A stretch of DNA of 42,734 nt from contig JAGAAJ010000094.1 of the NCBI GenBank assembly GCA_017615355.1, positions 1 through 42,734 on the forward strand, read 5' to 3'. The stretch comes from Prevotella sp. GTDB taxonomy: Bacteria; Bacteroidota; Bacteroidia; Bacteroidales; Bacteroidaceae. Below are positions 21,372 through 42,734 of the stretch, piece after piece. Position 1 is the first letter of the stretch; every line of letters begins with the position of its first letter. Position numbers and translations under genes: made by a program. The notes beneath the pieces are model-generated. The model had not been told where the DNA came from and did not search any database. It worked only from the letters and a program-made list of their open reading frames with translations.

Positions 21372-21372
21372 C

Positions 21373-21414
21373 GATTAGCCATTAGTAGTTAGCCATAATC
21401 CAAAATCCAATATG
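21373..21414 (+). repeat. Six 7-bp repeats running into a start codon
   Basis: The gap between the EnvC-like and M20 genes divides into GATTAGC, CATTAGT, AGTTAGC, CATAATC, CAAAATC and CAATATG. The ATG of the M20 gene is the last three bases of the sixth 7-mer. The consensus differs from the purine-rich family but the period is the same. Confidence 0.65.
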
Positions 21415-22485: not shown

Positions 22486-22506
22486 AAGCCACGTCTCTTT
22501 TGCAGG

Positions 22507-22535
22507 CTGAAAGCGCAAGTTTTCGGTCATTTTTT
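22507..22535 (+). terminator. Probable intrinsic terminator after the M20 gene
   Basis: CTGAAA (22507-22512) pairs with TTTCGG (22521-22526), including one G-T pair, across an 8-base loop, and is followed by a T-run at 22530-22535. The stem is short, so this is tentative. Confidence 0.4.
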
Positions 22536-22598
22536 CAATTTGTCAGTCCCCACGTTTTACCGCACAGAGAGGAAACCATTGTAAAAAAGTTTGCAAAT

Positions 22599-22631
22599 TT
22601 TGCATTATTAGAAAAGAATGTTGTATCTTTG
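22599..22631 (+). promoter_or_regulatory. Promoter of the acidic membrane protein gene
   Basis: TTTG at 22599-22602 is followed after 21 bases by TATCTTTG at 22624-22631, a full match to the Bacteroidota consensus. The leader to ATG 22681 is about 45 bases. Confidence 0.75.
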
Positions 22632-22680
22632 CAGCTGTTTCTCTTGAGAGGAATTCGTGCGACACATAACAACAGAAGAT

Positions 22681-23673: not shown

Positions 23674-23708
23674 CGTGAGCCACACTTTATGGTGGCCACC
23701 AATAAAGA

Positions 23709-25211
23709 ATGACAGAAAAAGAGAATCATAAAATATCTGACAGCAACAGCCAGCTCGCAGAGAGTGACAACGAGCTGGTGCGCCGCATTGCGGAGCAGAA
23801 ATACGAGTACGGCTTTACCACCGATGTACACACCGAGATCATCCCTACGGGCTTGAACGAGGATGTGGTGCGCCTTATCTCGCAGAAGAAGGGCGAGCCG
23901 GAATGGCTGCTCGACTTCCGCCTGAAGGCTTTCCGCTATTGGAGTACGCAGCAGCAGCCCACCTGGGGCCATGTACACGTGCCGCCCATCGACTATCAGG
24001 CCATCAGCTACTATGCCGACCCTACGGTTAAAAACCAAAAGCCAAATACCAACAGCCAAGAGATTGACCCCGAACTGGAAAAAACCTTCGACAAGCTGGG
24101 TATTCCCTTGGAAGAGCGCCTGGCGCTGAGCGGAAACACCGCAGTCGACGCCATCATGGACAGCGTGTCGGTAAAGACCACGTTCAAGAAGAAACTCAAG
24201 GAGAAGGGTGTCATCTTCTGCTCCATAGGCGAGGCCGTGAAGGAGCATGGTGACCTGGTGCGCCAATATCTCGGCACTGTAGTGCCCTACCGTGATAATT
24301 TCTATGCCGCTCTGAACAGCGCCGTCTTCAGCGACGGCTCCTTTGTCTACATACCAAAGGGCGTGCGCTGCCCTATGGAGCTGAGCAGCTATTTCCGCAT
24401 CAATGCCCGCAATACGGGTCAGTTTGAGCGCACACTCATCGTGGCCGATGACGACAGCTACGTCTCCTACTTGGAGGGCTGCACGGCGCCGATGCGTGAC
24501 GAAAACCAACTGCACGCAGCCATCGTCGAGATTATCGTGAAGGACCGTGCCGAGGTGAAATACTCGACCGTGCAGAATTGGTATCCAGGCGACGAAGAGG
24601 GCAAGGGCGGTGTGCTCAACCTCGTGACGAAGCGTGGCCTATTGGCTGGCGAGAGCTCAAAACTCTCATGGACGCAGGTCGAGACGGGCTCTGCCATCAC
24701 GTGGAAATACCCGTCGTGTGTGCTGAAAGGCGACAACAGCGTGGCTGAGTTCTACTCTGTAGCCGTAACGAACAACTATCAGGAGGCCGACACTGGCACA
24801 AAGATGATACACTTGGGACGCAACACCAAGAGTACCATCATCTCGAAAGGCATCTCGGCAGGTCATTCGCAGAACAGCTATAGAGGCTTGGTGCGTGCAG
24901 CCGCCACTGCCGAGAACGCCCGCAACTACTCTTCATGCGACTCGTTGCTACTTGGCAGCAACTGCGGCGCCCACACCTTCCCATACATGGACGTGAAGAA
25001 TCCTACCGCCATCTTCGAGCATGAGGCCACCACCAGCAAGATCAGCGAAGACCAGCTTTTCTACTGCAATCAGCGCGGAATACCAACTGAACAGGCCGTC
25101 GGCCTCATCGTTGGCGGCTATGCCCGCGATGTGCTGAAGAAGCTGCCCATGGAGTTTGCCGTCGAGGCACAGAAGCTTCTCTCTGTTTCCCTTGAGGGGA
25201 CGGTGGGATAA
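23709..25211 (+). CDS. sufB: Fe-S cluster assembly scaffold subunit SufB
   Basis: SufB of the SUF iron-sulfur assembly machine, 500 residues, forms the SufBC2D scaffold where clusters are built. The SufB/SufD beta-helix core is clear from about residue 160 on, with [31 protein letters not shown] (with the conserved Cys), the [19 protein letters not shown] region and C-terminal [11 protein letters not shown]. Length is close to that of other SufB proteins. In the N-terminal region, [13 protein letters not shown] (about residues 109-121) appears to be extra, encoded by 7-bp repeats. SufC and SufD follow directly; neither a SufS cysteine desulfurase nor SufE/SufU is seen in the window. Confidence 0.95.
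24027..24061 (+). repeat. Five 7-bp repeats inside sufB
   Basis: The tract reads GTTAAAA, ACCAAAA, GCCAAAT, ACCAACA, GCCAAGA (consensus RCCAAMA), encoding a polar linker. It is the same repeat family, on the coding strand, as the AGCCAAC 7-mers in mrp. Confidence 0.65.
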
Positions 25212-25213
25212 TT

Positions 25214-25269
25214 TCATCGACATAACGTCATAACGATATAACGAAAAGTTGAAATAACGAAATATCAAG
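25214..25269 (+). repeat. Seven 8-bp repeats between sufB and sufC
   Basis: The gap divides into TCATCGAC, ATAACGTC, ATAACGAT, ATAACGAA, AAGTTGAA, ATAACGAA, ATATCAAG. ATAACG occurs at 25222, 25230, 25238 and 25254, always at multiples of 8 bases. The tract ends 3 bases before the GTG start of sufC. Confidence 0.8.
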
Positions 25270-25272
25270 AAA

Positions 25273-26025
25273 GTGTTAGAAGTAAAGAACTTACACGCCA
25301 GCATCGGCGGCAAGGAGATATTGAAGGGCATCGACCTGGTAATCAACGATGGCGAGACACACGCCATCATGGGACCTAACGGCTCGGGCAAGTCGACGCT
25401 CTCAGCCGTCCTCGTTGGCAACCCACTCTATGAGGTGACAGAGGGCGAGGCCTATTTCAACGGCAAAGACCTCCTGGCGATGAAGCCCGAGGAGCGTGCT
25501 CACGAGGGACTGTTCCTGTCATTCCAATATCCTGTGGAAATCCCCGGCGTCTCGATGACCAACTTCATGAAGGCCGCCATCAACGAGAAGCGCAAGGCGC
25601 AAGGCTTAGAGCCGATGAACGCAGCCGACTTCATCAAGCTGATGCGCGAGAAACGCAAGATTGTGGAGCTTGATGCCAAGCTGGCCAACCGCTCGGTGAA
25701 CGAGGGATTCAGCGGAGGCGAGAAGAAACGCAACGAAATCTTCCAGATGGCGATGCTTGAACCGAAGCTGAGCATCCTCGATGAGACCGACAGCGGCCTC
25801 GATGTCGACGCCATGCGCATCGTGGCTGACGGTGTGAACAAGCTGATGACGCCTGACACCTCATGCATTGTCATCACCCACTACGACCGCCTGTTGGAGA
25901 TGATCCGTCCGCAGTTTGTGCACGTGCTCTATCAGGGACGCATCGTGAAGACGGCAGGGCCGGAGCTGGCTCAGGAGATACAGGAGAAGGGTTACGACTG
26001 GCTAAAAGCTGAAGCTGATGAATAG
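25273..26025 (+). CDS. sufC: Fe-S cluster assembly ATPase SufC
   Basis: SufC is the soluble ABC-type ATPase of the SUF scaffold and drives conformational change in SufBC2D. It has 250 residues, the normal length. Walker A GPNGSGKST is at residues 34-42, the Q-loop lies in FLSFQYPVEIPGV, the signature is FSGGEKKRNEIFQM, and Walker B with the SufC-typical DETDSGLDVDA follows. The start is GTG (GTG TTA GAA GTA AAG, reading MLEVK), which fits the conserved SufC N-terminus; there is no nearer ATG. It ends inside the start of sufD (8-base overlap), so SufC and SufD are translationally coupled. Confidence 0.95.
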   Translation: MLEVKNLHASIGGKEILKGIDLVINDGETHAIMGPNGSGKSTLSAVLVGNPLYEVTEGEAYFNGKDLLAMKPEERAHEGLFLSFQYPVEIPGVSMTNFMKAAINEKRKAQGLEPMNAADFIKLMREKRKIVELDAKLANRSVNEGFSGGEKKRNEIFQMAMLEPKLSILDETDSGLDVDAMRIVADGVNKLMTPDTSCIVITHYDRLLEMIRPQFVHVLYQGRIVKTAGPELAQEIQEKGYDWLKAEADE

Positions 26026-27337
26026 CGAGCAACAGTATATCGACATCTACAAAGAGCAGCGTGCCGTCATTTTCGAGCACTCCTCAGAGGTGATGAACGC
26101 GGTGCGCGACGAGGCCTTTGAGCGCTTCGTGGCGAGTGGCTTTCCTACACAAAAGGTGGAACGCTACAAATACACCGATGTGCAGAAGTTGTTTGAACCC
26201 GACTATGGCCTGAACCTGCGCCGTCTGAATATTCCCGTCGACCCTTATCAAGCTTTCCGCTGCGACGTGCCCAACCTGTCGACGTCTCTCTTCTTCGTCG
26301 TCAACGACCAATTCTATGGTGGAAAGCAGCATGACAAGGATGTTTTCGTGGGCTCGTTGAAAGATTTGCCAACTCACCTCTCAGAATACTACAATAGTCT
26401 AGCTAGTAAGGACGGTGACGCTTTGACCGACCTCAATACCATGCTGGCACAAGACGGGTTGCTTGTCTATGTGCCACGCGGAGTGAAGGCCGAGCGTGCC
26501 ATTCAGGTAGTGAACATCCTGCGCAGCGATGTGCCGCTGATGGTCAACCGCCGCGTGCTTATAGTAGCCGAAGAAGGCGCCGAAGTGACGCTGCTGTTCT
26601 GCGACCATGCTGCCGACGACCACGCCTTCCTCACCACGCAGGTCATAGAGGTCTTCGCCAAGGACAACGCCACCGTAAACCTCTACTGCCTCGAAGAGAC
26701 ACATCATAAGAATGTACGCGTGAGCAACGTCTACATCGACCAGCAGCGCAGCAGCCGCGTCACCCACAATGTCATCACCCTGCACAACGGCATCACCCGC
26801 AACAAGCTCGACCTGACATTCAACGGCGAGGGAGCTGAGTGCGAGTGCCTAGGTTGTGTCATCGCCGACAAGCAGCAGCATGTGGACAACAACACCCTCA
26901 TCACTCACCACGCTACACACTGCACCTCCAATGAGCTTTACAAGTACGTGCTCAACGACCAGAGCACGGGTGCTTTTGCAGGCCGAGTGCTGGTGGAACA
27001 CGGGGCTCAGCAGACCTCATCGCAGATGACCAACCAGAATCTCTGCTCGTCGAAGGAGGCCCACATGTACACACAGCCCATGCTCGAAATCTATGCCGAC
27101 GACGTGAAGTGTGCGCATGGCTCTACCGTAGGTCAGCTCAACGACCAGGCCCTCTTCTACATGCAGCAGCGCGGTATTCCTCGTGAAGAGGCTCGCACGC
27201 TGCTTGAAGTGGCTTTTATCAACCAAGTCATCGACGGCATCAGCCTTGTGCCCCTGCGCGACCGCCTGCACTATCTTGTGGAGAAACGATTCCGCGGAGA
27301 GCTCAGTAAATGCAAAGGCTGCCAGCTGTGCCGTTAA
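26018..27337 (+). CDS. sufD: Fe-S cluster assembly protein SufD
   Basis: SufD, 439 residues, is the partner of SufB in the SufBC2D complex and is needed for iron acquisition. An N-terminal helical domain (residues about 1-90, with FPTQKVERYKYTDVQKLF) leads into the right-handed beta-helix of the SufB/SufD family; the C-terminal region has the typical SSKEAHMYTQPMLEIYADDV, CAHGSTVGQLNDQALFYMQQRGI sequence. The ending CKGCQLCR contains extra cysteines. The ATG overlaps the sufC stop codon by 8 bases. The gene is followed by a weak hairpin and then a fresh promoter, so the suf operon appears to end here. Confidence 0.94.
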   Translation: MNSEQQYIDIYKEQRAVIFEHSSEVMNAVRDEAFERFVASGFPTQKVERYKYTDVQKLFEPDYGLNLRRLNIPVDPYQAFRCDVPNLSTSLFFVVNDQFYGGKQHDKDVFVGSLKDLPTHLSEYYNSLASKDGDALTDLNTMLAQDGLLVYVPRGVKAERAIQVVNILRSDVPLMVNRRVLIVAEEGAEVTLLFCDHAADDHAFLTTQVIEVFAKDNATVNLYCLEETHHKNVRVSNVYIDQQRSSRVTHNVITLHNGITRNKLDLTFNGEGAECECLGCVIADKQQHVDNNTLITHHATHCTSNELYKYVLNDQSTGAFAGRVLVEHGAQQTSSQMTNQNLCSSKEAHMYTQPMLEIYADDVKCAHGSTVGQLNDQALFYMQQRGIPREEARTLLEVAFINQVIDGISLVPLRDRLHYLVEKRFRGELSKCKGCQLCR

Positions 27338-27345
27338 TTTTGGAG

Positions 27346-27370
27346 CGCGTTTTTTCTGAAAAGGGACGCG
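27346..27370 (+). terminator. Weak hairpin after sufD
   Basis: CGCGT (27346-27350) pairs with ACGCG (27366-27370); G-T and A-T pairs can extend the stem to about 10. It sits between sufD and the next promoter and could act as a terminator, but there is no T-run after it. Confidence 0.3.
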
Positions 27371-27385
27371 AAAATTTGGAAAATC

Positions 27386-27417
27386 CTTGCGCATTTGCAG
27401 GAAAAGCACTATCTTTG
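27386..27417 (+). promoter_or_regulatory. Promoter of the second ligase gene
   Basis: CTTG at 27386-27389 lies 20 bases before TATCTTTG at 27410-27417. The -7 element is a perfect match and the -33 an imperfect one. The leader to ATG 27453 is about 30 bases. Confidence 0.6.
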
Positions 27418-27452
27418 CAATCGCGAAACATGACAACCTAAACACCTCATAA

Positions 27453-28772
27453 ATGAACGAAACAAATTCACCCTACTTTAATCCGGAACTCGAGACGATG
27501 AGTCGCGAGCAGATTGAGGCGCTCCAGCTGGAACGGCTCAAAGCTACTGTCCGCCACTGTATGAACAACGAGTTCTATCAGAAGAAATTCAAGGAGGCTG
27601 GCATCACACCCGATGATATCCAGACACTTGACGACGTAAAAAAACTACCCTTCACCACGAAGGCCGACCTGCGCGACACCTATCCCTTCGGCATGGCCTG
27701 CGTGCCCCTGCGCGACTGTGTGCGTCTGCACTCTTCCAGCGGCACCACGGGTAATCCCACCGTCATTCTTCATACGAAGAAAGACCTCGACGAGTGGGCC
27801 AATCAGGTGGCTCGTAACCTGTGGATGGTAGGCCTGCGTCCTGATGACGTGTTCCAGAACTCCTCCGGCTATGGTATGTTTACTGGCGGCTTGGGCTTCC
27901 AGTACGGTGCTGAGAAGCTGGGTATGCTCACCGTGCCTGCTGCCGCCGGCAATTCGCTGCGACAGATCAAGTTCATCAAGGACTTCGGCACCACAGCTAT
28001 CCACGCCGTGCCCAGTTACGTCACACGTCTCTACGAAGTGATGCAGGAACAGGGCGTCGATCCGCGTCGCGATACAAAGCTGAAGATGCTGGCCATCGGT
28101 GCCGAGCCTCATAGCGAGGAGCAGCGCAAGCGTATCGAGGAGATGCTGGGCGTGAAGGCCTACAACTCCTTCGGCATGAGCGAGATGTGCGGCCCTGGTG
28201 TAGGCTTTGAGTGCAAAGAGCAGAACGGATTGCATTTCTGGGAGGACTACTACATCGTGGAGATCGTAGACCCCGAAACGCTGGAACCCGTGCCCGACGG
28301 CGAGATTGGCGAGCTGGTGCTCACCACGCTGTGCCGTGAAGCTATGCCGCTGCTCCGCTATCGCACCCGTGACCTCACCCGTGTGCTCGGTCGCAGTTGT
28401 CCCTGCGGACGCAACCACATCCGTCTCGACCGTATGCGTGGCCGCTCCGACGATATGATGGTGCTCAGAGGCGTAAATATCTTCCCCATCCAGATTGAGA
28501 AGATCCTGATGAACTTCAAGGAGCTGGGCAACAACTACCTCATCACCCTGACCACCGACGACGACAATGACAATATGACCATTGAGGTGGAATTGGCCGA
28601 GATGTTCACCGACGACTACAACCGTCTGCAGCAGCTCAGTAAGGACATCACACGTGCCCTGAAGGACGAGATTCTGCTCACTCCGCGTGTAAAGCTCGTA
28701 CCTCGCGGCACCCTGCCTGTCAGCGAGGGCAAGGCCGTGCGCGTCGTCGACAAGAGAAAAGTATATCAATAA
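27453..28772 (+). CDS. paaK: Phenylacetate-CoA ligase (second paralogue, ACT-linked)
   Basis: This 439-residue adenylate-forming aryl-acid:CoA ligase shares all motifs with the protein at 1815-3122: P-loop SSSGTTGNPT (about residues 94-103), the YNSFGMSEMCGPG centre, YRTRDL and the hinge GRSDDMMVLRG, and ends in VVDKRKVYQ. An ACT-domain gene follows after an 8-bp repeat; ligase plus ACT-protein pairs also occur in other anaerobes, where they are linked to aromatic 2-oxoacid/aryl-acetyl-CoA metabolism. It is likely reversible, turning arylacetyl-CoA into arylacetate to make ATP, but the direction is inference. The oxidoreductase (IorAB/PorA type) that would supply the thioester is not in this window. 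Confidence 0.9.
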   Translation: MNETNSPYFNPELETMSREQIEALQLERLKATVRHCMNNEFYQKKFKEAGITPDDIQTLDDVKKLPFTTKADLRDTYPFGMACVPLRDCVRLHSSSGTTGNPTVILHTKKDLDEWANQVARNLWMVGLRPDDVFQNSSGYGMFTGGLGFQYGAEKLGMLTVPAAAGNSLRQIKFIKDFGTTAIHAVPSYVTRLYEVMQEQGVDPRRDTKLKMLAIGAEPHSEEQRKRIEEMLGVKAYNSFGMSEMCGPGVGFECKEQNGLHFWEDYYIVEIVDPETLEPVPDGEIGELVLTTLCREAMPLLRYRTRDLTRVLGRSCPCGRNHIRLDRMRGRSDDMMVLRGVNIFPIQIEKILMNFKELGNNYLITLTTDDDNDNMTIEVELAEMFTDDYNRLQQLSKDITRALKDEILLTPRVKLVPRGTLPVSEGKAVRVVDKRKVYQ

Positions 28773-31761: not shown

Positions 31762-31871
31762 TGTTTATAAAGTGTATCTGTGAAGCAGTCAAAAACACAT
31801 AAAAAAGTATAAAAGTAGGAGTAAAACGGCGATAATTTAACGATGAATAAAAGAAATTGAAAATAAATCAC

Positions 31872-31879
31872 TACCTTTG
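31872..31879 (+). promoter_or_regulatory. -7 element of the island operon
   Basis: TACCTTTG matches TAnnTTTG and lies 20 bases before ATG 31900. No clean TTTG is found at the -33 position, which is consistent with a weak or activator-dependent promoter. Confidence 0.5.
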
Positions 31880-31899
31880 TACCATTAAAATTCAATCAG

Positions 31900-32130
31900 A
31901 TGGAAGATATTAATAGAATCAAGATGGTGTTGTTTGAGAAGAAACGTACTGCGCGATGGCTTTCAGAACAGATGGGGGTTACGCCATCTACTGTCAGCAA
32001 GTGGTGTACGAACACATCTCAACCTGACCTTGCAACAATACTGAAAATTGCAGATTTATTAGAAGTTGATATTAGAGAACTGTTTGTGAGGGAATATAAG
32101 TCCTATCTCATATCTCAAGGTTCCAAATGA
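31900..32130 (+). CDS. XRE-family helix-turn-helix regulator of the island
   Basis: This 76-residue protein is essentially one Cro/C1-type DNA-binding domain: KKRTARWLSEQMGVTPSTVS at about residues 14-33 contains the scaffold and recognition helices, followed by WCTNTSQPDLATILKIADLLEVDIRELF, the usual XRE tail. It is the first gene of the island and lies 28 bases before the next gene in the same direction, so it probably controls the operon that follows, as small XRE proteins do for many defence operons. The inverted repeats upstream are candidate operators. Regulation is inferred, not seen. Confidence 0.85.
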   Translation: MEDINRIKMVLFEKKRTARWLSEQMGVTPSTVSKWCTNTSQPDLATILKIADLLEVDIRELFVREYKSYLISQGSK

Positions 32131-32158
32131 TGGGTTTAAAGATTAGCATCTTATAACA

Positions 32159-33751
32159 ATGAATATTATGCAAGGCGACATATTTAAAGCATTTTGCCAC
32201 TATGTGGATGACCGCATTTTCTCGAAAGAGAATATGGGGTCTTATGTCGCTCTGGTCATAGACCAATCTTTTGTTGACGATTTCTGTAGAGAAAACCATA
32301 CAACAGAAGATGCTCTAATGTCTTCTGTTCGCAGTATTCTGTGGAGATATAGACACGATGAATTGTCGATAAAAGGTATAGTTGCTATTCAACTATTTGC
32401 TGCATCAAAAAGAGCTAATACAGATGGATTAACAGTAAAGAACTATAGAGATCGTTTGTCTCAAGTAGTTAATTGGGACATCAACGATTTGCAGCAATGG
32501 ATGGCATCATATCAAGAAAATATCTGGGTGTCACTATATCGTTGGTGTGATAGTCACTATTTCCAGATAACAAAGTGCAAGCCAAGGACAGGAACGGGAC
32601 GATACGTTCAGTTCCCAGTAAACCAAGCCTTACGTGTTTTTAATGAAGAGGATTTGTTTTACATTGCTAGAGCTTTTGTTGACAAACATCTCTATCCAGG
32701 AGAAGATATTTCACAAGTGGATTTCTGGAGGATTATCAATAAACATTCCATTTCAAGTTATTTTCAAACTAGGCATGCTTATGACGTTGTTGCCAATTCT
32801 GTTTCAGACGACGATTACTATTCACAGATATACAATTATTATCTACGCTGGAATGGTAAGTATAAATTCCGTGAGAAAGTTGTCAAGACTGACCCTGCAC
32901 TGGCAGACGTGTACGCATATCTTACGGACGATTTAAGCACCCTCGAGCTTAGAAATGAGCATTTAAGTCTCCTGCATATTTTTTCATCTGACCAGATGAG
33001 TTATGTCAATATTAAAAAACACTTCCCTTTCAAACGGGAAGGAATGTTAGTATTTAAGAGGGATGATGTCTATGAGAACCGCTGGCAGGAGGTAAGATAT
33101 ATAGATGCTGATGAAACTGATTATTCAAAAGAGTCTGGTAACTATGGTATTGTTGTTTGCTTTAGAAACGCTGTGCCATTAAGATGGGAACACAAACTGA
33201 AGGTATGTGAAATACTTTTTGATAATAAGTTTTTTGTCGTATACAAACTAATCAGACGTGTTCTGACAGAGGAGTTTTTTACAGAGAAACACCCATACGA
33301 GTTATATGGTGGGCTCAAAATTGGTCGCAATACATACTTAAAGGGGGCTACACCCATATTACGATTGTTAAAGTCTACAATGGTGTGGGTTGACGGTAAG
33401 GCTGTAGACGAGAATGCGATAAATGGCGATTACTCTTTAAACCATCTTGAAGCAGGTAGTCACTATGTAAAGTTCATCAATAGTAAAAAAATCAAGATAG
33501 AGGTTGTTGATACTTCTGCGAGTATTTGGGAATGGCAGAACGGCTATAATAAATGGCAAATCGGGAAGAAACCCGCATTATGGCGTAACACAAATTCAGA
33601 TAGTGGCATTGTCGGGTTGAATTTCTCTTCTGTTTGTGATAAGGAGCAGGCTCTTGATGGGAGTGTGGTCAAACGATGGGCCAAAGCACTGGTTTTTGAC
33701 GAGTACCATCCTAATGAAAATAATATTGCTATTAACTTAACGAAACAATAA
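32159..33751 (+). CDS. Uncharacterised island protein, possible DruB-like
   Basis: I do not recognise a domain in this 530-residue protein. The N-terminal half (about 1-230) looks alpha-helical and rich in charged and aromatic residues (DLQQWMASYQENIWVSLYRW). The C-terminal half (about 290-530) is more beta-like and contains Gly-turn segments such as YGGLKIGRNTYLKG and a WEWQNGYNKWQIG stretch, suggestive of beta-sandwich modules. No signal peptide or membrane helix is evident, so it is cytoplasmic. It is the first structural gene after the XRE regulator and ends 1 base before the next start codon. Its position and size suggest DruB of Druantia type I systems, from memory of gene order only. 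ATG 32168 is an alternative start. Confidence 0.6.
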   Translation: MNIMQGDIFKAFCHYVDDRIFSKENMGSYVALVIDQSFVDDFCRENHTTEDALMSSVRSILWRYRHDELSIKGIVAIQLFAASKRANTDGLTVKNYRDRLSQVVNWDINDLQQWMASYQENIWVSLYRWCDSHYFQITKCKPRTGTGRYVQFPVNQALRVFNEEDLFYIARAFVDKHLYPGEDISQVDFWRIINKHSISSYFQTRHAYDVVANSVSDDDYYSQIYNYYLRWNGKYKFREKVVKTDPALADVYAYLTDDLSTLELRNEHLSLLHIFSSDQMSYVNIKKHFPFKREGMLVFKRDDVYENRWQEVRYIDADETDYSKESGNYGIVVCFRNAVPLRWEHKLKVCEILFDNKFFVVYKLIRRVLTEEFFTEKHPYELYGGLKIGRNTYLKGATPILRLLKSTMVWVDGKAVDENAINGDYSLNHLEAGSHYVKFINSKKIKIEVVDTSASIWEWQNGYNKWQIGKKPALWRNTNSDSGIVGLNFSSVCDKEQALDGSVVKRWAKALVFDEYHPNENNIAINLTKQ

Positions 33752-33752
33752 T

Positions 33753-35630
33753 ATGAAAACATTTGATTACGAACAATATAGAGTTGTAGGCCTTGTAGAA
33801 GACAAGCTTGGCGACAATGCGACAATCAATGTGATTGGTTATTGTGATGACAATCTTCATGTGTTTCATAAGCTTAATGAAGCAGAAACCCTTGAATTGT
33901 TTCCCACTCGCGGTAAGGTTTTTGCCTATAGATTCAATTTAGACTATAAGCATCTCAAAGGAAGCATTGCCTGCCTATGTGTTCAACCCAGCAATAAAGA
34001 TGATAGAGAAAGATATGTCTGGGATTGGGATGCAGAAGTCATTGAGTACGGGCGAAGAATCCACACGCTTAAAGGTGTATTCTCTGAGGATAGTCAGCAG
34101 AATTATGACATTCTCGCAAATAACGGTTTACTTGATGTTAATAGCGACAAGTTAGTATATAGCGGTGGAAGGGTTTATCAGATTATTCCCGACAATAGCG
34201 ACAGGGTATTAAAATACTGGGAAGCATCTTCGCTTGAGATGGTTTCAGTCGATGGCTACAGGTATTTCGTAGGTATATCCTTACCTAAGCACGATGGTTT
34301 GTTAGATATTACCAACGATGAACAATTGGCCAACTGGTATTTGTCTAAGGTCGTTAAAAAGAATTGGTCAGGTATTGTTCAGGCTCAATCGTTCCGTAAC
34401 TCAGAAAGCTTTTTAAGAGAATTGCTTTCTTCGCAAAAAGACCTTGATGCAGCAACTATAGAATACAGGTTGAAACGGCTTTTGTCTATAGACACAAGCA
34501 TATCTCTTATGTTTGACAGCTTAAAGGAGATTGCTGAAACGCCATGGTTTTCTGAAGTTGTCAATAGAAGTATAGCAAAGGAGAAAGTGCATCTGATAGA
34601 ACAGCTCAGAAATGACAACACTGCAGAGATTCAGAAAATAAAAGAAGATTATGATTCGGAACTGATGCAGCTTGAAGAAGAGCAAAAGGCAAAGATAGAA
34701 AAACTGCAACAAGAAATTGATGAAAAGAAAAAGGGTCTTGCAGAGCAGGAACGCTCTTTTGATGCCAAGCTTCAGGAGAAGAATTTTGAGATAGAATTGT
34801 TAGATGAAGCCGTTAAGGAGAAACGACAAACGATTGCTGCCATTGAGGAATCCATCGCCCAAATGAATGACAGAAAAGCCTCTATCATTCAAGATTTCTC
34901 CATCATACATGAGGTGTTGTCAGCATCTGTTCCTCAGAATAAAGCTGCAACGGTACAATCATCCAAGCAATTCGCACTGGAAGAAATCAACTATTCCGAG
35001 AATCCCATTACCCGTTTCCAAGCATATGTTAAATCGCTGGACAACATCTTAAAAGCCAATGAAGCTCCTAAGTGCTCGTCACAGGCCTTGGCCAGATTAC
35101 TAGCAAAGTATATAGTTGTGCTGTGTCCAAGTCAGGCTATAGCACAAGCATTAATAATGGCTTCACATAAGTGCCGTTATATCACAGAATACGTGAGCGC
35201 TAAATGGGCTTCTTTTGATGACCTGTGGAATAATGGTCTGGCCTATATCGTTGAAAAATGCAACGAAGAACCAGAGACCATACACTTCCTGCTATTGCAA
35301 AACATAAATTTATCATACCTTCCAAATTTCTTGCAACCGGTGGCTGACCTTCAAAAAAGTCTTATAACTAGATTCCCAGCGACGGATATTCCTCTGCCCA
35401 AGAATTTGCGCATTCTCTGTACCGTATCAGAAGATGAACTTATTAAGATGCCAGCAACAGTCCTAAGATATTTTGGCTGTATCGACAAAACATGTCAATT
35501 TGACACATCATCCACAATGAAAATGGCTGATGATGCAAACTTAGGCTATCTCACGACAGAAGAACTTATTCGTGAAGGGCAACAAGATTTTGAGGTTCAT
35601 AACATGTTTGAACAGTATATAGATGAGTAA
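33753..35630 (+). CDS. Coiled-coil protein with a degenerate AAA+ (McrB/MoxR-like) C-terminus, possible DruC-like
   Basis: This is a cytoplasmic protein of 625 residues. Residues 1-190 form a mixed, beta-containing N-terminal domain. About 285-390 is a long coiled coil (EEEQKAKIEKLQQEIDEKKK and following). The C-terminal part (about 420-580) has the layout of a McrB-like AAA+ domain: a Walker-B-like FLLLQNINLSYLPNFLQPV and a sensor-1-like LPKNLRILCTVSEDE. Where Walker A should be, VLCPSQAIAQAL lacks the GK[ST], and the Walker B acidic pair is QN. It is therefore probably a non-hydrolysing pseudo-ATPase that assembles or recognises a ligand. The start follows the previous stop by 1 base, and the end overlaps the next gene by 8 bases. 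Function is unknown. Confidence 0.6.
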   Translation: MKTFDYEQYRVVGLVEDKLGDNATINVIGYCDDNLHVFHKLNEAETLELFPTRGKVFAYRFNLDYKHLKGSIACLCVQPSNKDDRERYVWDWDAEVIEYGRRIHTLKGVFSEDSQQNYDILANNGLLDVNSDKLVYSGGRVYQIIPDNSDRVLKYWEASSLEMVSVDGYRYFVGISLPKHDGLLDITNDEQLANWYLSKVVKKNWSGIVQAQSFRNSESFLRELLSSQKDLDAATIEYRLKRLLSIDTSISLMFDSLKEIAETPWFSEVVNRSIAKEKVHLIEQLRNDNTAEIQKIKEDYDSELMQLEEEQKAKIEKLQQEIDEKKKGLAEQERSFDAKLQEKNFEIELLDEAVKEKRQTIAAIEESIAQMNDRKASIIQDFSIIHEVLSASVPQNKAATVQSSKQFALEEINYSENPITRFQAYVKSLDNILKANEAPKCSSQALARLLAKYIVVLCPSQAIAQALIMASHKCRYITEYVSAKWASFDDLWNNGLAYIVEKCNEEPETIHFLLLQNINLSYLPNFLQPVADLQKSLITRFPATDIPLPKNLRILCTVSEDELIKMPATVLRYFGCIDKTCQFDTSSTMKMADDANLGYLTTEELIREGQQDFEVHNMFEQYIDE

Positions 35631-36447
35631 TTCCATGAGATTAACAGACCTTCAGAATTTATTCTACGTATGGATGAGTAAATTCGAGAAGAGAAGCCTT
35701 GAAAACATCAAGGTTCACTGTGATTTTCTCAATGAAAGTTATGGCCTTAATCTTACATACCCCAATTGGAGCATTTTCTGGCCATTGGTCTTCAATGGTC
35801 TGATTGATCATATAGGTAAAGGGTATTATGCTCTTACCACACCTGTCATCATTGATTATGGCCGACACTATGTCTATATTAACTACAAGCCCAACAATGT
35901 CAAATCCAAGCAGCTTACCATAGGTATATATTTATCTGAGCAAATAGACAATCCAAGAGATTTTGCCGTTATTAAGGTAAATCCGCTGTCTGTCTTAAAT
36001 AGATTCCCAACAGTCAAAGATATTGTTGACTCTTTTGAAAAATCACATCGTGACCCTAAAGAATTAGAGTATTACCATTGGAAATCGGGGAAAGGGATTG
36101 CTAAACTGGAAGCAGAAGGTCTTACACGCTACTTCTCCATACCAGAGGAGTTATATATGCGCGAACTTCCAAGCAGGACGGTTAACCCGGAAGCATTTGC
36201 TGTTGCCTATTGCTTTAGCCGTGCTATCAATAATGAACCTAATGGGAGATATAGCGAAGCGACCAATACGCTTGCACTTCCGACTTTTGCCCTGCCATAC
36301 CTGCTTTACCGAACATTGTTGCTCCACTCCCTGTCTGATGGGGTAATACCAGAGGTACGTGACAAGTATTACATCTTTAACAATGTGCCGGTTCCCTATG
36401 TACGACAATTGAATAGAATTTTATGTAACTCGATAGTATATGAATGA
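35623..36447 (+). CDS. Uncharacterised island protein, possible DruD-like
   Basis: This 274-residue soluble protein has no recognised domain. The first 75 residues (RLTDLQNLFYVWMSKFEKRS, then WSIFWPLVFNGLIDHIGKGYYAL) look like a winged-helix-like unit, the GKGYYALT end resembling a beta wing. The remainder alternates short beta and helical stretches. Its start overlaps the upstream stop by 8 bases and its end overlaps the helicase start by 8 bases (ATGAATGA), which argues for a stoichiometric role with both neighbours. Judged by position only, it could be the DruD equivalent. DNA or nucleoprotein recognition would fit the winged-helix impression, but this is speculative. Confidence 0.55.
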   Translation: MSNSMRLTDLQNLFYVWMSKFEKRSLENIKVHCDFLNESYGLNLTYPNWSIFWPLVFNGLIDHIGKGYYALTTPVIIDYGRHYVYINYKPNNVKSKQLTIGIYLSEQIDNPRDFAVIKVNPLSVLNRFPTVKDIVDSFEKSHRDPKELEYYHWKSGKGIAKLEAEGLTRYFSIPEELYMRELPSRTVNPEAFAVAYCFSRAINNEPNGRYSEATNTLALPTFALPYLLYRTLLLHSLSDGVIPEVRDKYYIFNNVPVPYVRQLNRILCNSIVYE

Positions 36448-39400
36448 TCCTATAAAAATATATAATGATATACGCAATGCTTACTATAAATATATAGGAA
36501 GCGGATTACCATTCTTTCGTGAAGAATATAATCTGGAGCGTAACAAGCTCATAAGGGAGCCTGGCACTATTTCACAGCCTCCCATCATTGAGATTGTTCC
36601 AAAATATCATGAGAAAGCCACGCTTAAAGATTTTTGCGTGGCAGAGGGAGTAAGCACCGAATTGAATGATTTCGTTAATTGTGGTCTATTCTCACAAGGT
36701 GGTTCATTTGAAAGAAAACTGTATGACCATCAATACGAAGCACTTAAAACCGCTCACCTTGATAGAAAGAACATAGTCGTTACTACTGGTACTGGCTCAG
36801 GTAAAACTGAATGTTTCTTACTTCCTGTTATCGCAGACCTCATCAAGGAATCAAAACAATGGCATAATGAGCGTCCACGTGCAATGAGGACAATGATTCT
36901 CTATCCTCTTAATGCGCTTGCAGAAGACCAGATGATTCGACTCAGAAAGGCAGTGAATAGTCGAAAAGATGATAAAAGTGGGGCTCTTGACTGGTTAGAC
37001 AGAAACAGGAATGGCAATCGATTCTATTTCGGGCGTTATACAGGAGCAACTCCTGTAAGCGGCTCAAAAGAAAAAGCCAAAGACAAACTAAGAGAAGAAA
37101 AGCGAAGCCTAATAAGGGACTGGAACGCAGCAAAAGAAAGTGGCAAAAAAGAGCTCCTGTATCACATCCCTTGTATGGAAGATGATTCAGCTGAGATGTG
37201 GGATAGATTTTCCATGCAGGAAAATGCCCCTGACATTCTTATCACAAACTACAGTATGCTCAATGTCATGCTGATGCGCGACAATGAGCTGAAGATGTTT
37301 GAGGATACCCGCAAATGGCTGGCAGAAGACAAGCATAACGTTTTCCATCTGGTCATAGATGAATTGCACACATACCGAGGAACAGCAGGGACAGAAGTTG
37401 CTTATTTGATTCGAATATTACTTGACAGATTAGGAGTGACTCCCGATTCTCCTCAGGTACAATTCCTTGCTACCAGTGCCTCTTTAGAAGAGAACCTGCA
37501 GTCCATCGATTTTCTTGCTGAGTTCTTCGGTATTGACAAAGAGCGATTTAATGAAAGATTCACTATCATTTCGAATCCTCCCCAAGCCGCAGTTGAAAGG
37601 CCTACGGTAGCGATACCATACGAAGAACTTGCCAATTATTATGAAACAGAAGAAAACGACGAGGCATTCCTTGCTTCTCTTGACTGTGACTCCTTCTTTG
37701 CTGTCACCCAGAAGTATCAGTTGGTCGAATGGCTCAAATATGCAATGAGCACACCAAGAGGGATACTTCCACGTGATGTTGTAAGCATATCAAAGTCGCT
37801 TCCCGTCAATGAAGATATAGCTTTGACAACAACAGCAGCCATCATAAAGGTAATATGCAAGGGAGCGACTTCAAACGGATATGTCTTACCGCTTCGTGCA
37901 CATTTCTTCTTCAGGAACCTTTCTGGTCTTTGGGCATGTTCTTCACATGAATGCAAGGATGTTTGCAGTGAATATCAGTTTGACGAAAGGGCAATAGGCC
38001 GCTTTTTCAAACGCCCCCGTAATGTGTGTTCGTGTGGCATGAAGGTGTTGGAACTGCTGGTCTGTGAGAACTGTGGCGAAGTATTTCTCAGTGGTTACCA
38101 ACTCGTCAGAAACGGCAGAACCTATCTTAGCGTTGAGAAACCGATTGGTAATGTTTTTGTCGGATATGGTGTCCTATGGAAGGGAACAGAAAAGCCTGAA
38201 GACGGATGGATACGGGTATCATACGATGCTGCCACAGGTGAGTGCGCCAATGACATGGATGGGCAATACTGGCTGCACCTACAAAAGAGTGACTCAGAAA
38301 CAAAATTCCCTCATAGATGTCCCAAATGCGAGGTCTCATATAAGGTCAGTGATGCAAGCAGTCTGACTCCTGTCCGTCGTCATAGTACCGGACTTCAGAA
38401 AATAACGCAGATTCTTGCAGACTCACTTATAAGGTCGATGCGGAATGCCAAAGAGTCTAATACGAAGGTGGTATTGTTCTCTGACAGCAGACAATCCGCA
38501 GCAAAACTCTCAGCAGGTATAGAACTTGACCATTACCGCGACGTTTTGCGATGGGCTATATTGCACTCCCTTAGTGGAAACGATAAGGCTATTGAGATTC
38601 TTAACAAATACAGGAAAGGCCAGCCTCTGACAGAAGATGAGAAGGAAACGTTTAGGTCATTAGGCAATGCTCCGACATTCCGTGAATATATCAACTACAT
38701 CAGAGATGAGAAAGATGACTTGATAACGGATGATGCATTAGAAGCACTTAATGAATTTCTTAATGCCGTGTCTGGTCAGAACTTGGATAATATAGAAGAT
38801 GAGGTGTTCAGAATCCTATTGAAACAGGGAATGAATCCCGCTGGCCCCAAACCTTCTGTAACCGAAAGCAGTATAGCAGGCTTCTGGTCAGAGTTGTATG
38901 ACTTTATCCAGTTGAAGGTTAAGCCTGGATTGAGTGACAACAAACGACAGTTTGAGGAAAGTATTCGTTCGTCCAACAAAACCGAACAGATAACCAGCAT
39001 CTTCTCAAACAAGAAACGTTCCTTCGAAGAACTGAAGTTGGGTTATCTGACTCCATCAAAAGATATAGCGGATCCTATTTGGAGAGAAATGGTATGTGCC
39101 ACCATCCGTATCTTGGGCGAAAAAAGAAGGATAAAAGGTATTCCTTCCAAATACCCTGCTACTGAAAGTTTTCCGAAGGAAGTTAGAAACTTGGTAAAGA
39201 CCATATTTCATGTCACAAGCAATAGTGCAGTTGAAGAAAAGATAGAGGAGTTAAGAAGACTTCTCCGAAGTCGTGGAATCATAGACGCGACGACAGTTAG
39301 GCTTACGGGTGAAGGTATCTCTTTTGTGAAAGCAGAAATAGGTAGCAAATATTGGGTATGTCCTAAGTGTAAAACCATTCACATGCATCATGCGAACGGT

Positions 39401-41620
39401 GTTTGCATCAACTGCAATAACAAATTAGGAGATGCCCTTGTTTTGACCGAAAAGGACGTGTCTAACCCAGAAGACTACTATCTTACACTGCTTAACAGCA
39501 CGGACAGTGTTTACCGCTTACATTGTGAGGAAATGACAGGTCAGACGGCAAAAGAAGACTCAAGACGGCGACAGCGCCTTTTCCAAGAAATATTTCTAGA
39601 TAATGAGAATAGCGTTGTTGATGGAATTGATTTGTTGAGCGTGACAACCACGATGGAGGCAGGTGTTGACATTGGCTCCCTTTCAGCGGTAATGATGGGC
39701 AATGTACCTCCCCAACGTTTTAACTATCAACAAAGAGTAGGTCGCGCAGGCCGTCGCGGGAACCCACTGTCGGTGGCATTGACAGTTGCACGTTCCTCAA
39801 GTCACGATCAGACCAACTTTATAGAATACAACCGCATGGTGTCAGATACGCCTAAAGACCCATATTTGGAAGTTCGCACATTGGAGATTGCCCAACGTAT
39901 AATAGTGAAGGAGGTTTTGTACAAAGCACTTCGGAAAGAAAGTGGTGCCAACGATAGCGTACACGGTAATTTCGGACTCGTAGAGAATTGGAGCTATAAT
40001 AAAGACATCGTCTCAAAATGGTTAGATGGTAACCAAAATGAGGTACATCGCATAATATATGTTGTTACCAATGGGACGGAAATCAGCGATGAACTAAAAG
40101 GCGAGATCTTTAACTACATCTATAAGGGCCTGCTTGATGAAATAACAAATATATCCAATAGTACTTCCTTTACGCAAGACCTTCTAAGTGAAAGACTGGC
40201 CAACGCTGGTATGCTTCCTATGTTTGGCTTCCCAACAAGAGTTAGGAATCTATACTTGAAAGACCCAGTGCTTCAAGGGAAGTTGCCTTCAGAAGATGTG
40301 GTTTCGAGGGATATTGATATGGCTATCAATTCTTTTGCTCCAGGACATGAGATAGTGAAAGATAAAAAAGTCTATAAGTCAATCGGAGTAGTGGAATATG
40401 AATACAACAAGTTAAATCACACAGTTAAACCCAAATACAATTCGTTGAATGTTTATAACCAGCCTTTGTGCCGTTGCCATAATTGTGGCTATTCGACTAT
40501 TGTTGATACAGAACCGCAAGATTCATGTCCTGTATGTGGAAACGAAATGGAGAAAGTAAAGATTTGTTCTCCATTAGGTTTCTTTGTCGACTATGAAAAG
40601 AAACCAGAAGATTTCAGCGGTGACTATGATTGGTACTCACCCAATAGCGATATTAGATTGGATTGTGAACAGTATCTTCGTGATTGTGGAACTGTTGCAA
40701 ATATGACGATACGTAACAACATATCCCCTTCTCAGGGCAGGGTCCATCTGGTAAACGACAACAACGGAGATTTGTATTGCTTGGGGAAAGACGATAAAGG
40801 TAGATTTGTTTCAAGAGATGTTCTAGAAGAGGGAAAGAGACAATCAATAAGGCTTCAGAATGAAACGAAATATGCATTCGTCGCCTCAAAGACTACAGGT
40901 GTGTTAACACTGTCTGTAGACAAAATGCCAAAGTGTGTAAACTTGTCTCCTATACTTGAGACAAACGCTAATAGCTATGCTGTTAGAGCAGCATTCCTGT
41001 CATGGGGCTATCTGGCAAGAAAAGCCATATCCTCATACTTAGATATAGATTCGTCTGAGCTCAATGTGGGATTTTATATTGTTCCACAGACCAAAAAGGC
41101 AGAGATTTTCTTTGTCGAAAATCTTGAAAACGGTGCTGGCTATTGCAATTTTCTATCAGGAAGACGCTACACCAATGTTCCTATGGAAGCAATAATAGAG
41201 CCTTTGTCTGAAGGTGGAGAAATCTATAATCAGCTCACATCAAAAGAACACCAGTCAGGCTGTACTTCTTCCTGTTATGATTGCATACGCGATTATTCAA
41301 ATCAGAATGTTCATGGTATTCTTGATTGGAGGTTGGGCTTGGATATAGCACGTCTTGCCAATAGCAAGGAAGCAACAATTGACTTCTCTGTACCTTATTG
41401 GTATGATTATATTTTCTCAACCATAAAGAATATGCTTGAAAGCAATCGATACACAGTGGAAGAAATGCATGGGACACTCATCGGCAATGACCCTTACGGT
41501 GACAAATATATTCTGGTTCATCCTCTATGGTCTGAAAAACATGTTGACTCCTTGATGCGGAAAATAGGGGGAGAATATAAGCCTCTGTCTGTTTTTGGAA
41601 TAACTAAACTTAAAACCTAA
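36440..41620 (+). CDS. Giant DEAD/DEAH-type superfamily 2 helicase with DUF1998/MZB-type C-terminus (DruE-like)
   Basis: This 1726-residue protein is the core enzyme of the island. A Q-like motif YDHQYEAL precedes Walker A GTGSGKT (117-123); the DExH box is DELH (307-310); TSASLEEN is motif III; the second RecA domain contains TTTMEAGVDIGS and motif VI QRVGRAGRRG (1098-1107). Several cysteine pairs suggest zinc ribbons: CSCGMKVLELLVCENCG, CPKC near 630, CPKCKTIHMHHANGVCINC (from 974), CRCHNCG (1344-1349) with CPVCG. The C-terminal GCTSSCYDC (C1608, C1612, C1615) is the MZB/DUF1998 zinc site seen in MrfA helicases. Large helicases of this type drive Druantia, Dpd and DISARM defence. Here, three coupled unknown genes precede it, the Druantia type I order. 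Substrate is likely foreign or modified DNA. Confidence 0.85.
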   Translation: MNDPIKIYNDIRNAYYKYIGSGLPFFREEYNLERNKLIREPGTISQPPIIEIVPKYHEKATLKDFCVAEGVSTELNDFVNCGLFSQGGSFERKLYDHQYEALKTAHLDRKNIVVTTGTGSGKTECFLLPVIADLIKESKQWHNERPRAMRTMILYPLNALAEDQMIRLRKAVNSRKDDKSGALDWLDRNRNGNRFYFGRYTGATPVSGSKEKAKDKLREEKRSLIRDWNAAKESGKKELLYHIPCMEDDSAEMWDRFSMQENAPDILITNYSMLNVMLMRDNELKMFEDTRKWLAEDKHNVFHLVIDELHTYRGTAGTEVAYLIRILLDRLGVTPDSPQVQFLATSASLEENLQSIDFLAEFFGIDKERFNERFTIISNPPQAAVERPTVAIPYEELANYYETEENDEAFLASLDCDSFFAVTQKYQLVEWLKYAMSTPRGILPRDVVSISKSLPVNEDIALTTTAAIIKVICKGATSNGYVLPLRAHFFFRNLSGLWACSSHECKDVCSEYQFDERAIGRFFKRPRNVCSCGMKVLELLVCENCGEVFLSGYQLVRNGRTYLSVEKPIGNVFVGYGVLWKGTEKPEDGWIRVSYDAATGECANDMDGQYWLHLQKSDSETKFPHRCPKCEVSYKVSDASSLTPVRRHSTGLQKITQILADSLIRSMRNAKESNTKVVLFSDSRQSAAKLSAGIELDHYRDVLRWAILHSLSGNDKAIEILNKYRKGQPLTEDEKETFRSLGNAPTFREYINYIRDEKDDLITDDALEALNEFLNAVSGQNLDNIEDEVFRILLKQGMNPAGPKPSVTESSIAGFWSELYDFIQLKVKPGLSDNKRQFEESIRSSNKTEQITSIFSNKKRSFEELKLGYLTPSKDIADPIWREMVCATIRILGEKRRIKGIPSKYPATESFPKEVRNLVKTIFHVTSNSAVEEKIEELRRLLRSRGIIDATTVRLTGEGISFVKAEIGSKYWVCPKCKTIHMHHANGVCINCNNKLGDALVLTEKDVSNPEDYYLTLLNSTDSVYRLHCEEMTGQTAKEDSRRRQRLFQEIFLDNENSVVDGIDLLSVTTTMEAGVDIGSLSAVMMGNVPPQRFNYQQRVGRAGRRGNPLSVALTVARSSSHDQTNFIEYNRMVSDTPKDPYLEVRTLEIAQRIIVKEVLYKALRKESGANDSVHGNFGLVENWSYNKDIVSKWLDGNQNEVHRIIYVVTNGTEISDELKGEIFNYIYKGLLDEITNISNSTSFTQDLLSERLANAGMLPMFGFPTRVRNLYLKDPVLQGKLPSEDVVSRDIDMAINSFAPGHEIVKDKKVYKSIGVVEYEYNKLNHTVKPKYNSLNVYNQPLCRCHNCGYSTIVDTEPQDSCPVCGNEMEKVKICSPLGFFVDYEKKPEDFSGDYDWYSPNSDIRLDCEQYLRDCGTVANMTIRNNISPSQGRVHLVNDNNGDLYCLGKDDKGRFVSRDVLEEGKRQSIRLQNETKYAFVASKTTGVLTLSVDKMPKCVNLSPILETNANSYAVRAAFLSWGYLARKAISSYLDIDSSELNVGFYIVPQTKKAEIFFVENLENGAGYCNFLSGRRYTNVPMEAIIEPLSEGGEIYNQLTSKEHQSGCTSSCYDCIRDYSNQNVHGILDWRLGLDIARLANSKEATIDFSVPYWYDYIFSTIKNMLESNRYTVEEMHGTLIGNDPYGDKYILVHPLWSEKHVDSLMRKIGGEYKPLSVFGITKLKT

Positions 41621-41671
41621 CTATAACTTATACAAAGACAATACAATTGACAAATAATACGTTATCATATA

Positions 41672-42734
41672 ATGACCATACAAGAAATAATATCTCGGAA
41701 GGAAGACCAGACATTTGATTGCAAAAGCATTCAAATAGATTCGAAGGCTTTAGCTGTCCCCATTGTAGCATTTGCCAATGCTGATGGTGGTGTGATAGCC
41801 ATTGGTGTATCGGATAAGACCCGAAAGATAGAAGGGGTTGACCAGCATACGGAGAAACTCAATGAGTTGTTGCGTGTGCCTTTCGACTTCTGCAATCCGT
41901 CTGTGCCAGTCACTTGTTCGTATCTGCCATGCACGGATAAGGATGGGAATGGAAACCGCATTTTACTGATGGAGATTCCTGCCAGTTCCAGCTTGCACAC
42001 CAATCAGGCAGATGAAGCATTCATGCGCGTAGGTGACAAGAGCCGGAAACTGACCTTTGATGAGCGTGTCCAGCTGATGTATGACAAGGGAGAACGGTAT
42101 TACGAGGATACAGCGGTCTATGGTGCTACCATTGATGATATTGATATGGATGCCGTGACCGACTATGCCAAACTGGTTGGATATGGGAAGAGTCCGCTGC
42201 AATACCTGCGAGAGAACAATAGTTTTGTGACCACCAACAAGAAAGGTGAGGAGGATGTCAGCACTGCTTGTGTTCTTCTCTTTGGCAAGAATCCACAGAA
42301 GTTCTTCCCTCGTGCTCGCACCCGTTTTATCCGCTATGAAGGTATCGATGAAAAGGTGGGTGCAGAAATGAACGTCATCAAGGATGTCACGTTTGAAGGA
42401 ACCATCTTGAATCAGGTAAAGAAAACCATCGAGTTCATCGAGACTCAAGTTCGAGAGCATACGTTCTTGGGACAACATGCCCAGTTCGTAACAAAGCGTG
42501 ATTACCCAGAATTCGTCATACAAGAAATGACGGTCAATGCTTGCTGCCACAGAGCGTATAACATTAAGGGAACTGAAATTCAAATTAAGATGTTCGATGA
42601 TAGACTGGTTTTTGAATCTCCAGGAAAGTTGCCAGGTCAGGTGAAACCCACCAACATCCGACACACCCACTTTTTCTCGTAATCCAAAGATATCGGCTTT
42701 CTTCAAAGCATATCACTATGTCAAGGAGTTTGGC
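41672..42734 (+). pseudogene. AlbA_2-domain (Schlafen/COG2865-like) ATP-binding protein, frameshifted and cut by the window edge
   Basis: The N-terminal AlbA_2 domain is clear (SRKEDQTFDCKSIQID, FANADGGVIAIGVSD, FMRVGDKSRKLTFDE), followed by the GHKL-like ATP-binding part (PEFVIQEMTVNACCHRAYN and DDRLVFESPGKLPG). The reading frame stops at 42682 just after NIRHTHFFS. Skipping one base in the T5 run at 42671-42675 gives the family-typical continuation HFSRNPKIS...YHYVKEFG to the end of the window. So it is a one-base insertion relative to the family: a broken gene, a phase-variable tract, or an assembly error. It is 51 bases after the helicase, but its base composition is higher in GC. Its role in the system is uncertain. 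Confidence 0.75.

Follow-up and report, generated by a model that had tools for sequence, protein, structure and literature searches.

Layout of the operon

We analyzed a stretch of 42,734 nucleotides (the window) from a Prevotella sp. genome (GenBank assembly GCA_017615355.1; 147 contigs that add up to 3.25 Mb, with a completeness of 89.7%); the window is the entire contig JAGAAJ010000094.1. Near its 3' end the window carries five consecutive genes, which are likely to be a chromosomal Druantia-family operon for defence against phages, with the new composition DruF-DruG-DruL-DruE, that has moved between Bacteroidota as one block. The last four genes are read in this way because of the matches of the helicase to DruE models, and of the profiles of the three middle proteins (B, C and D) to named Druantia proteins. 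The five genes are as follows:

31900..32130, plus strand: XRE/Cro-type regulator, 76 aa (HTH_3, 40.6 bits, 2.7e-10)
32159..33751, plus strand: DruF homologue, protein B, 530 aa (by profile-profile comparison and PADLOC DruF4)
33753..35630, plus strand: DruG homologue, protein C, 625 aa (by profile-profile comparison; N-terminal part, coiled coil and degenerate McrB-like ATPase end)
35623..36447, plus strand: DruL homologue, protein D, 274 aa (by profile-profile comparison to DruL)
36440..41620, plus strand: DruE, protein E, a YprA-family SF2 helicase of 1726 aa (by PADLOC DruE models)

All five open reading frames (ORFs) lie on the plus strand, and the successive distances, beginning behind the XRE gene and ending at the ORF that follows the helicase, are 28, 1, -8, -8 and 51 bases. 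An earlier note, made from the sequence of this DNA alone, had described a five-gene layout with these protein sizes and the XRE gene in the first place, tight coupling of the last four genes (one 1-base gap and two 8-base overlaps) and an AT-rich block, and each of these descriptions was confirmed. The GC content of the five genes is 0.38-0.42, compared to 0.539 over positions 1-31100, and it is 40.5% from approximately 31.1 kb to the contig end. The XRE gene, however, does not always take the first place in the system: relatives of the XRE protein were found in only two of the six loci with a visible upstream side, namely the window and its nearest copy, and a search of 356 ORFs returned the nearest copy alone (1.1e-48), with the next match at 0.11. 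Where it is present, the XRE protein is probably a repressor of the operon.

The helicase DruE

The 1726-aa protein was scored with the PADLOC-DB 2.0.0 models at 1376 bits for DruE4, 1337 and 1289 for DruE2, 694 for DruE1 and 419 for DruE3. The DruE4 and DruE2 matches have E=0, and the Druantia-family link proposed in the earlier note is thus upheld. The models of other helicases score far lower (DpdJ 86 bits and DrmA 54 bits in PADLOC; the NCBIfam DpdJ model 82 bits, against a cut-off of 800). Pfam recognizes DEAD (68 bits), Helicase_C (35 bits) and MZB (PF09369), the last being barely above threshold (24.4 bits, cut-off 24.2), in agreement with the earlier description of a giant helicase with a DUF1998/MZB-type C-terminus. 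Intact copies of helicase motifs I, II and VI are present:

36785..36808, plus strand: motif I (Walker A), TGTGSGKT, residues 116-123
37358..37369, plus strand: motif II, DELH, residues 307-310
39731..39754, plus strand: motif VI, QRVGRAGR, residues 1098-1105
41009..41287, plus strand: MZB (DUF1998-type) zinc domain, residues 1524-1616 (PF09369)

Behind the zinc domain, the motif HP(L/F)W is present in 13 of 14 aligned DruE rows, the exception being E. coli type I. No nuclease active site was seen by eye in the C-terminal piece of this 14-row alignment, which fits the statement, in the available text of Bell et al. (PMC12458937), that type I and type II DruE carry a C-terminal inactivated Vsr domain.

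Identity to the window DruE is 41-93% among six rows of the same operon type; it lies at 32-35% in four type IV-like rows, at 27% in two rows of type II and at 24% in E. coli type I. In a DruE tree of 25 rows (L063, L064, L036 and the broken L035 were left out), five window-type rows are set apart from the rest by a 100/100 branch, as are five type II rows by a separate 100/100 branch with a long stem. The rows resembling PADLOC type IV require three changes, and the branching order of the groups is not settled by the tree. It should be noted that the residue make-up of the rows is uneven and that L051, L032, L050 and L052 have long branches. Among solved structures, YprA/MrfA is recognizable as a relative (6znp, 2.4e-14), and structure 9wae, labeled 'Helicase', matches Burkholderia DruE at 1547 bits; thus, 9wae appears to be a solved DruE, presumably of a type II-like system.

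The partner proteins B, C and D

When the single window proteins were compared to Pfam and NCBIfam, B and D gave no informative match, and the matches of C were weak and of the coiled-coil type; therefore, we gathered relatives of the three proteins and compared the family profiles (6-7 rows per window family) with profiles of named Druantia proteins using hhalign. Protein B matches the DruF profile at 99.3% (E 7.1e-21, 407 columns), although this comparison is not fully independent, because three of the six DruF rows (L027, L031 and L037) were recruited by an iterated B profile together with their position beside DruL and DruE; the other three (L024, L025 and L030) are named by PADLOC. Protein C matches the DruG profile at 96.8% (E 2.1e-10, 474 columns, end to end); that profile consists of the PADLOC-named L034 protein (3.4e-21) and three of its tblastn relatives. 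Protein D matches the DruL profile at 79.8% (E 1.5e-5, 239 columns), which is composed of seven rows, all PADLOC-named DruL (at locus L033, the annotation supplied the DruL sequence; the L033 DruF is in no profile).

The results are similar when only the first five rows are used: 99.3% for B/DruF, 97.0% for C/DruG and 75.4% for D/DruL, with the remaining family pairs at 1.1% or less, save C/McrB-like at 89.2%. The decoys reached at most 0.9% (225 column-shuffled profiles, 75 per family) and 0.3% (15 reversed profiles). PADLOC itself detects DruF4 (4.6e-4) and DruF2 (9.1e-4) in the window protein B, and DruF4 at 4.4e-19 in the L021 homologue of B, the latter being independent of the recruitment with the B profile. 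When 332 ORFs of 20 loci were searched with the D profile, the first ORFs from outside the family, ranked after five D proteins, were those of L037 (E 0.0066) and L030 (E 0.016), both DruL by PADLOC naming. The absence of any HMM likeness to Druantia subunits, which the earlier note had listed as an outcome that would speak against it, was therefore not observed.

Protein C consists of an N-terminal part, a coiled coil and an end that looks like a dead McrB-type ATPase:

34560..34952, plus strand: coiled-coil part, residues ~270-400 (approximate bounds; coiled-coil model matches)
35094..35444, plus strand: degenerate McrB-like AAA+ region, residues 448-564 (alignment)

Coiled-coil models of PADLOC, Pfam and NCBIfam match C at approximately residues 265-438. 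Besides the window genome and G265, the C profile gave six weak matches among 393 genomes of the order. Five of these (E 1.5e-5 to 7.1e-4) lie from residue 490 onward in proteins that are 587-748 aa long and served as the McrB-like rows, whereas the sixth match (E 4.9e-4, in G382) covers the coiled coil and was set aside. The McrB-like character of the five is seen in Pfam AAA matches to two of them, below the cut-off, and in the neighbor of the L044 protein, which belongs to DUF2357 (134 bits) and recalls McrBC; at L049 the neighbor is instead a YhcG-type nuclease. In the alignment, the GxxGSGKT motif of the McrB-like proteins faces a gap in C, and LDEMNLS faces LQNINLS. A P-loop is present in none of six C rows, and the Walker B acids are replaced by QN in four rows and read ED in two (G265 and G601). 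According to the available text of PMC12458937, the CnuB/McrB homologues encoded by types I and II are inactivated. Protein C also matches type I DruC at 71.8% in one setting, compared to 12.7, 16.1 and 5.6% in three others, and in the AAA region only; DruG matches DruC at 0.2-0.7%.

The DruL profile aligns with the C-terminal portion of type II DruF (80.2%, E 1.4e-5, positions 542-835), and with that of the L032 DruF at 98.6%; thus, in the rows compared, type II DruF reads as a fusion of DruF and DruL. In the window, the DruG gene separates that of DruF from that of DruL. DruL also matches type I DruD (58.4%, E 9.7e-5, 216 columns). The direct comparisons of the window proteins with type I subunits gave 0.1% for B and DruB and 0.1-0.3% for D and DruD, with E. 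coli and Pseudomonas reference profiles of 2-3 sequences.

Several results weigh against this assignment of the partners. PADLOC has no match to D, its DruL models included, and scores DruG2 in C at just 0.006, below other coiled-coil models. B matches a profile of type II DruF alone at just 50%, and D matches the portion of type II DruF that corresponds to DruL directly at 0.4-0.6%, so that the step from D to the fusions runs via DruL. In addition to the partial dependence of the B/DruF comparison, the match of C to the McrB-like rows (91.8%, hhalign, profiles of 6-7 rows) is not an independent test, because it was the C profile that had selected these five rows. AlphaFold models from two-sequence alignments have mean pLDDT of 33.2 and 34.3 and provide no usable structure. 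Finally, no active nuclease that would account for the destructive step of a defence system was recognized in the four operon proteins. Sequence searches of solved structures returned only coiled-coil chance matches for C (E 0.029 and worse), nothing notable for B and D, and nothing for Burkholderia DruG and DruF.

Several related loci differ in the arrangement of these genes. An Alisedimentitalea plasmid (L032) carries a fused DruF-DruL of 1013 aa at 4952-7993; a cytosine methylase is encoded farther downstream, as is an MvaI/BcnI-type endonuclease. A Bacteroidota type IV locus (L025, 3747-13941) has DruF-DruL-DruE followed by a DruK-type PD-(D/E)XK nuclease. Proteins of 640 to 655 aa with UvrD/GajB-like matches stand beside DruF, DruL and DruE in type IV/II-like loci (L024, 10947-12869; L032, 13400-15367). 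In a Nitrosococcus DruA locus (L050, 4944-7811), a 955-aa protein without a PADLOC match lies between DruA and DruD, in the place of E. coli DruB and DruC, and is unlike either by hhalign. The Druantia-like locus of a Hymenobacter plasmid (L035, 5110-14808) is broken, the helicase and DUF1998 being annotated as separate frames.

Conservation and probable transfer

The earlier note had proposed checking the gene order in other genomes, and the order was found in six other Bacteroidota genomes: B-C-D-E is complete in G034, G024, G1014, G265 and G601, and G853, whose contig breaks off within C, shows C-D-E. The G034 proteins are 81-93% identical to those of the window. Ratios of nonsynonymous to synonymous substitution rates, calculated against this nearest copy, are 0.011 for XRE, 0.117 for B, 0.091 for C, 0.127 for D and 0.055 for E; thus, all five genes are under purifying selection. 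The recurrence of the gene order in these six genomes, together with purifying selection, suggests that the operon is more than a chance association.

The distribution is patchy. At E 1e-15, the C profile finds 5 of 398 genomes of the genus. Among 393 genomes of the order, two match the full C profile, and of 395 genomes from the phylum, two have a full-length DruE with identity above 40%; the window genome is included in each count. The window and G034, a second species of the genus, share one blastn match of 10053 columns with 86.1% identity, and there is no blastn similarity on either flank; the block lies at another chromosomal site in G034:

31766..41779, no strand assigned: block common to the window and G034 contig ONMA01000023.1 (blastn)

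Outside the block, G034 has four matches of more than 900 bases to window positions 19992-28772, which are 69-79% identical; as they lie on four contigs and orthology is not assured, the comparison of backbone and block identities is only suggestive of transfer. A repeat search of the region found no repeat delimiting the block.

In G265 (L021), the operon is 13 bases from an LmuB gene (256 bits); an ABC-3C middle component and LmuA (104 bits) lie beyond it, upstream, and a phage integrase is downstream:

L021, 14278-17958 and 755-2155: Lamassu-type neighbors (LmuB, ABC-3C middle component, LmuA) and, across the operon from them, the phage integrase

In G601 (L023, 2157-17378), the operon is flanked at one end by tricorn-protease-like and Na/Ca-exchanger genes and at the opposite end by short ORFs, and no defence gene was recognized in the two scanned neighbors. 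A viral origin of the operon was rejected, there being no confirmed relative in four viral_contigs scans (A1, A2, A3 and P0005); P0005 gave two partial low-identity matches in phage records. Search P0002 found nothing among 72,556 plasmids, and a P0004 match in G367 (E 7.2e-5, 89 residues) was set aside, as it has no operon-like neighbors.

We also searched the seven operon-bearing genomes, four of which are highly fragmented and some incomplete, for components of other Druantia types. DruA (PF14236), whose absence was claimed in the earlier note, was found in none of the seven, several of them incomplete; the model was also silent in 14 controls, and it matched the DruA-bearing plasmid NC_014316.1, used as a positive control, at 1.2e-82. 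The cytosine methylase PF00145 was not found in the window genome, G265 and G601 (this was the methylase family searched); in G024 the match is approximately 0.2 Mb or more from the operon, and in G034, G1014 and G853 the matches are on contigs other than that of the operon. Within the operon, PADLOC and Pfam scans recognized no methylase or PLD nuclease partner.

Comparison with known systems and alternative explanations

Druantia type II is DruM-DruF-DruG-DruE, and Bell et al. (2025) count it as part of Type IV CoCoNuT. The window operon shares with it homologues of DruF, DruG and DruE, the inactivated McrB-like part in the DruG-type protein (as given in the available text of PMC12458937) and DruL, which in type II is the end of DruF. 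It differs in that DruL is a separate gene between DruG and DruE, in the lack of an adjoining cytosine methylase, in the position of DruE outside the type II clade and in the host, which belongs to Bacteroidota; type II was found only in Proteobacteria, according to the accessible part of the PADLOC paper. That part also defines type IV as DruE, DruF and DruL, with DruM and DruG lacking. The operon resembles this type in having DruE4 as the top model and separate homologues of DruF and DruL, and departs from it in having a DruG homologue and a D protein that the PADLOC DruL models miss. From the sequences, the operon thus unites a type II marker partner (DruG) with a type IV marker partner (DruL). 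With type I (DruABCDE) it shares three partner genes of similar size followed by DruE and the weak, unstable likeness of C to DruC; unlike type I, it has no DruA, B is not DruB, and D is not directly DruD by profile. The C residues that align with the McrB-like ATPase also recall McrB/CnuB of McrBC and CoCoNuT, from which C differs in the missing P-loop and the altered Walker B acids. The combination of a Druantia-type helicase and an apparently inactivated CnuB/McrB homologue corresponds to the definition of Type IV CoCoNuT in the part of Bell et al. (2025) available to us. DISARM, Dpd and ARMADA share the YprA-helicase family, whereas identity with DISARM or Dpd was rejected on the basis of the helicase scores. 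We found no description of the gene set DruF-DruG-DruL-DruE in the available Druantia literature, a search that did not extend to supplementary tables and most subscription journals.

The alternatives differ in how they account for the middle genes. A type II system with DruF and DruL split and DruM lost would explain the DruG homologue, the match of DruL to the end of type II DruF and the high DruE2 score; it is unlikely, given that type II DruE forms its own clade and is only distantly identical to the window protein, and that the methylase is missing from three of the seven genomes and is not beside the operon in the other four. A plain PADLOC type IV system (DruF-DruL-DruE) with an inserted, unrelated coiled-coil gene would fit the best DruE model and the DruE identities to the four type IV rows. 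However, the coiled-coil gene occupies the same place in seven of seven loci and matches DruG over 474 columns, and the five tested window-type DruE rows are a clade of their own, which makes this explanation very unlikely. The proposal of the earlier note, a type I system that has lost DruA, draws on the sizes of E. coli DruB (548), DruC (627) and DruD (347) and on the likenesses of C to DruC in one setting and of DruL to DruD, so that the resemblance to a DruBCDE layout is perhaps no accident. The type I identity itself was not supported, and we regard it as highly improbable: DruB and DruD are matched at 0.1-0.4%, compared to 99, 97 and 80% for DruF, DruG and DruL, the C/DruC match falls away in the other settings, the DruE1 score is half of that of DruE4, and E. 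coli type I DruE is less identical to the window protein than type IV DruE.

The function of the operon could also lie elsewhere, as a DNA-repair or housekeeping operon with a YprA-type helicase, or as a defence against plasmids rather than phages. The recognizable relationship to YprA/MrfA is in line with this, whereas the large excess of the DruE score over DpdJ and DrmA, the presence in few genomes of the genus, the dissimilar flanks of the block in the window and G034 and the Lamassu-type neighbor in G265 point in the other direction; we consider such a function improbable, although an action against plasmids is conceivable. An anti-phage Druantia-family operon of the composition DruF-DruG-DruL-DruE remains the explanation that we favor. 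A broader proposal is that the operon is a separate, undescribed type, and that types I, II and IV are one machine, composed of DruE and three partners, including DruG (perhaps also DruC) as a dead McrB-type scaffold and DruL/DruD, which in type II is fused to DruF, with DruA and DruM being optional. The matches of DruL to type II DruF support this for types II and IV; as a whole, we put it forward tentatively and slightly on the side of doubt.

Proposed mechanism and implications

The type III DruE is described, in the available text of PMC13192584, as a dimer that unwinds 3'-overhang and forked DNA and prefers 3'-tailed DNA; its authors view DruE as the shared core and the type-specific partners as triggers. 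By analogy, the window DruE, a YprA-type SF2 helicase, may load on single-stranded stretches of replicating phage DNA, translocate and disturb replication. The DruG-like protein, with its coiled coil and dead McrB-type ATPase, would serve as a scaffold linking DruE to DruF and DruL, and DruF and/or DruL would act in sensing or gating and set the timing of DruE action, while the XRE protein would hold expression low in the two copies having it. As no nuclease was recognized, the damage may result from blocking, from stripping or from a hidden domain in B or D.

In the PADLOC scheme, Druantia types are told apart by DruG or DruL, two partners that exclude each other. An operon with homologues of both suggests a shared partner set, so that the roles of DruF, DruG and DruL become testable in a methylase-free four-gene system. 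If types I, II and IV are indeed one machine, the methylase-free form would be the basic unit. It is also suggested that present models miss such operons, as two middle genes were uncalled by PADLOC-DB 2.0.0.

Neighboring sequences

Promoter and terminator scans of the region gave 31 and 8 sites, compared to 31.4 and 8.1 in shuffled sequences, i.e., no excess. Directly behind DruE is a 336-aa AlbA_2/RecG-C-like ORF (41672-42682); its 3' end looks cut short, because the HATPase_c_4 match spans only positions 1-31 of 89. A remnant of this gene, full of stops, is found at the equivalent site behind DruE in L004, and a 478-aa relative of this ORF is located behind DruE in L064, with one ORF in between.

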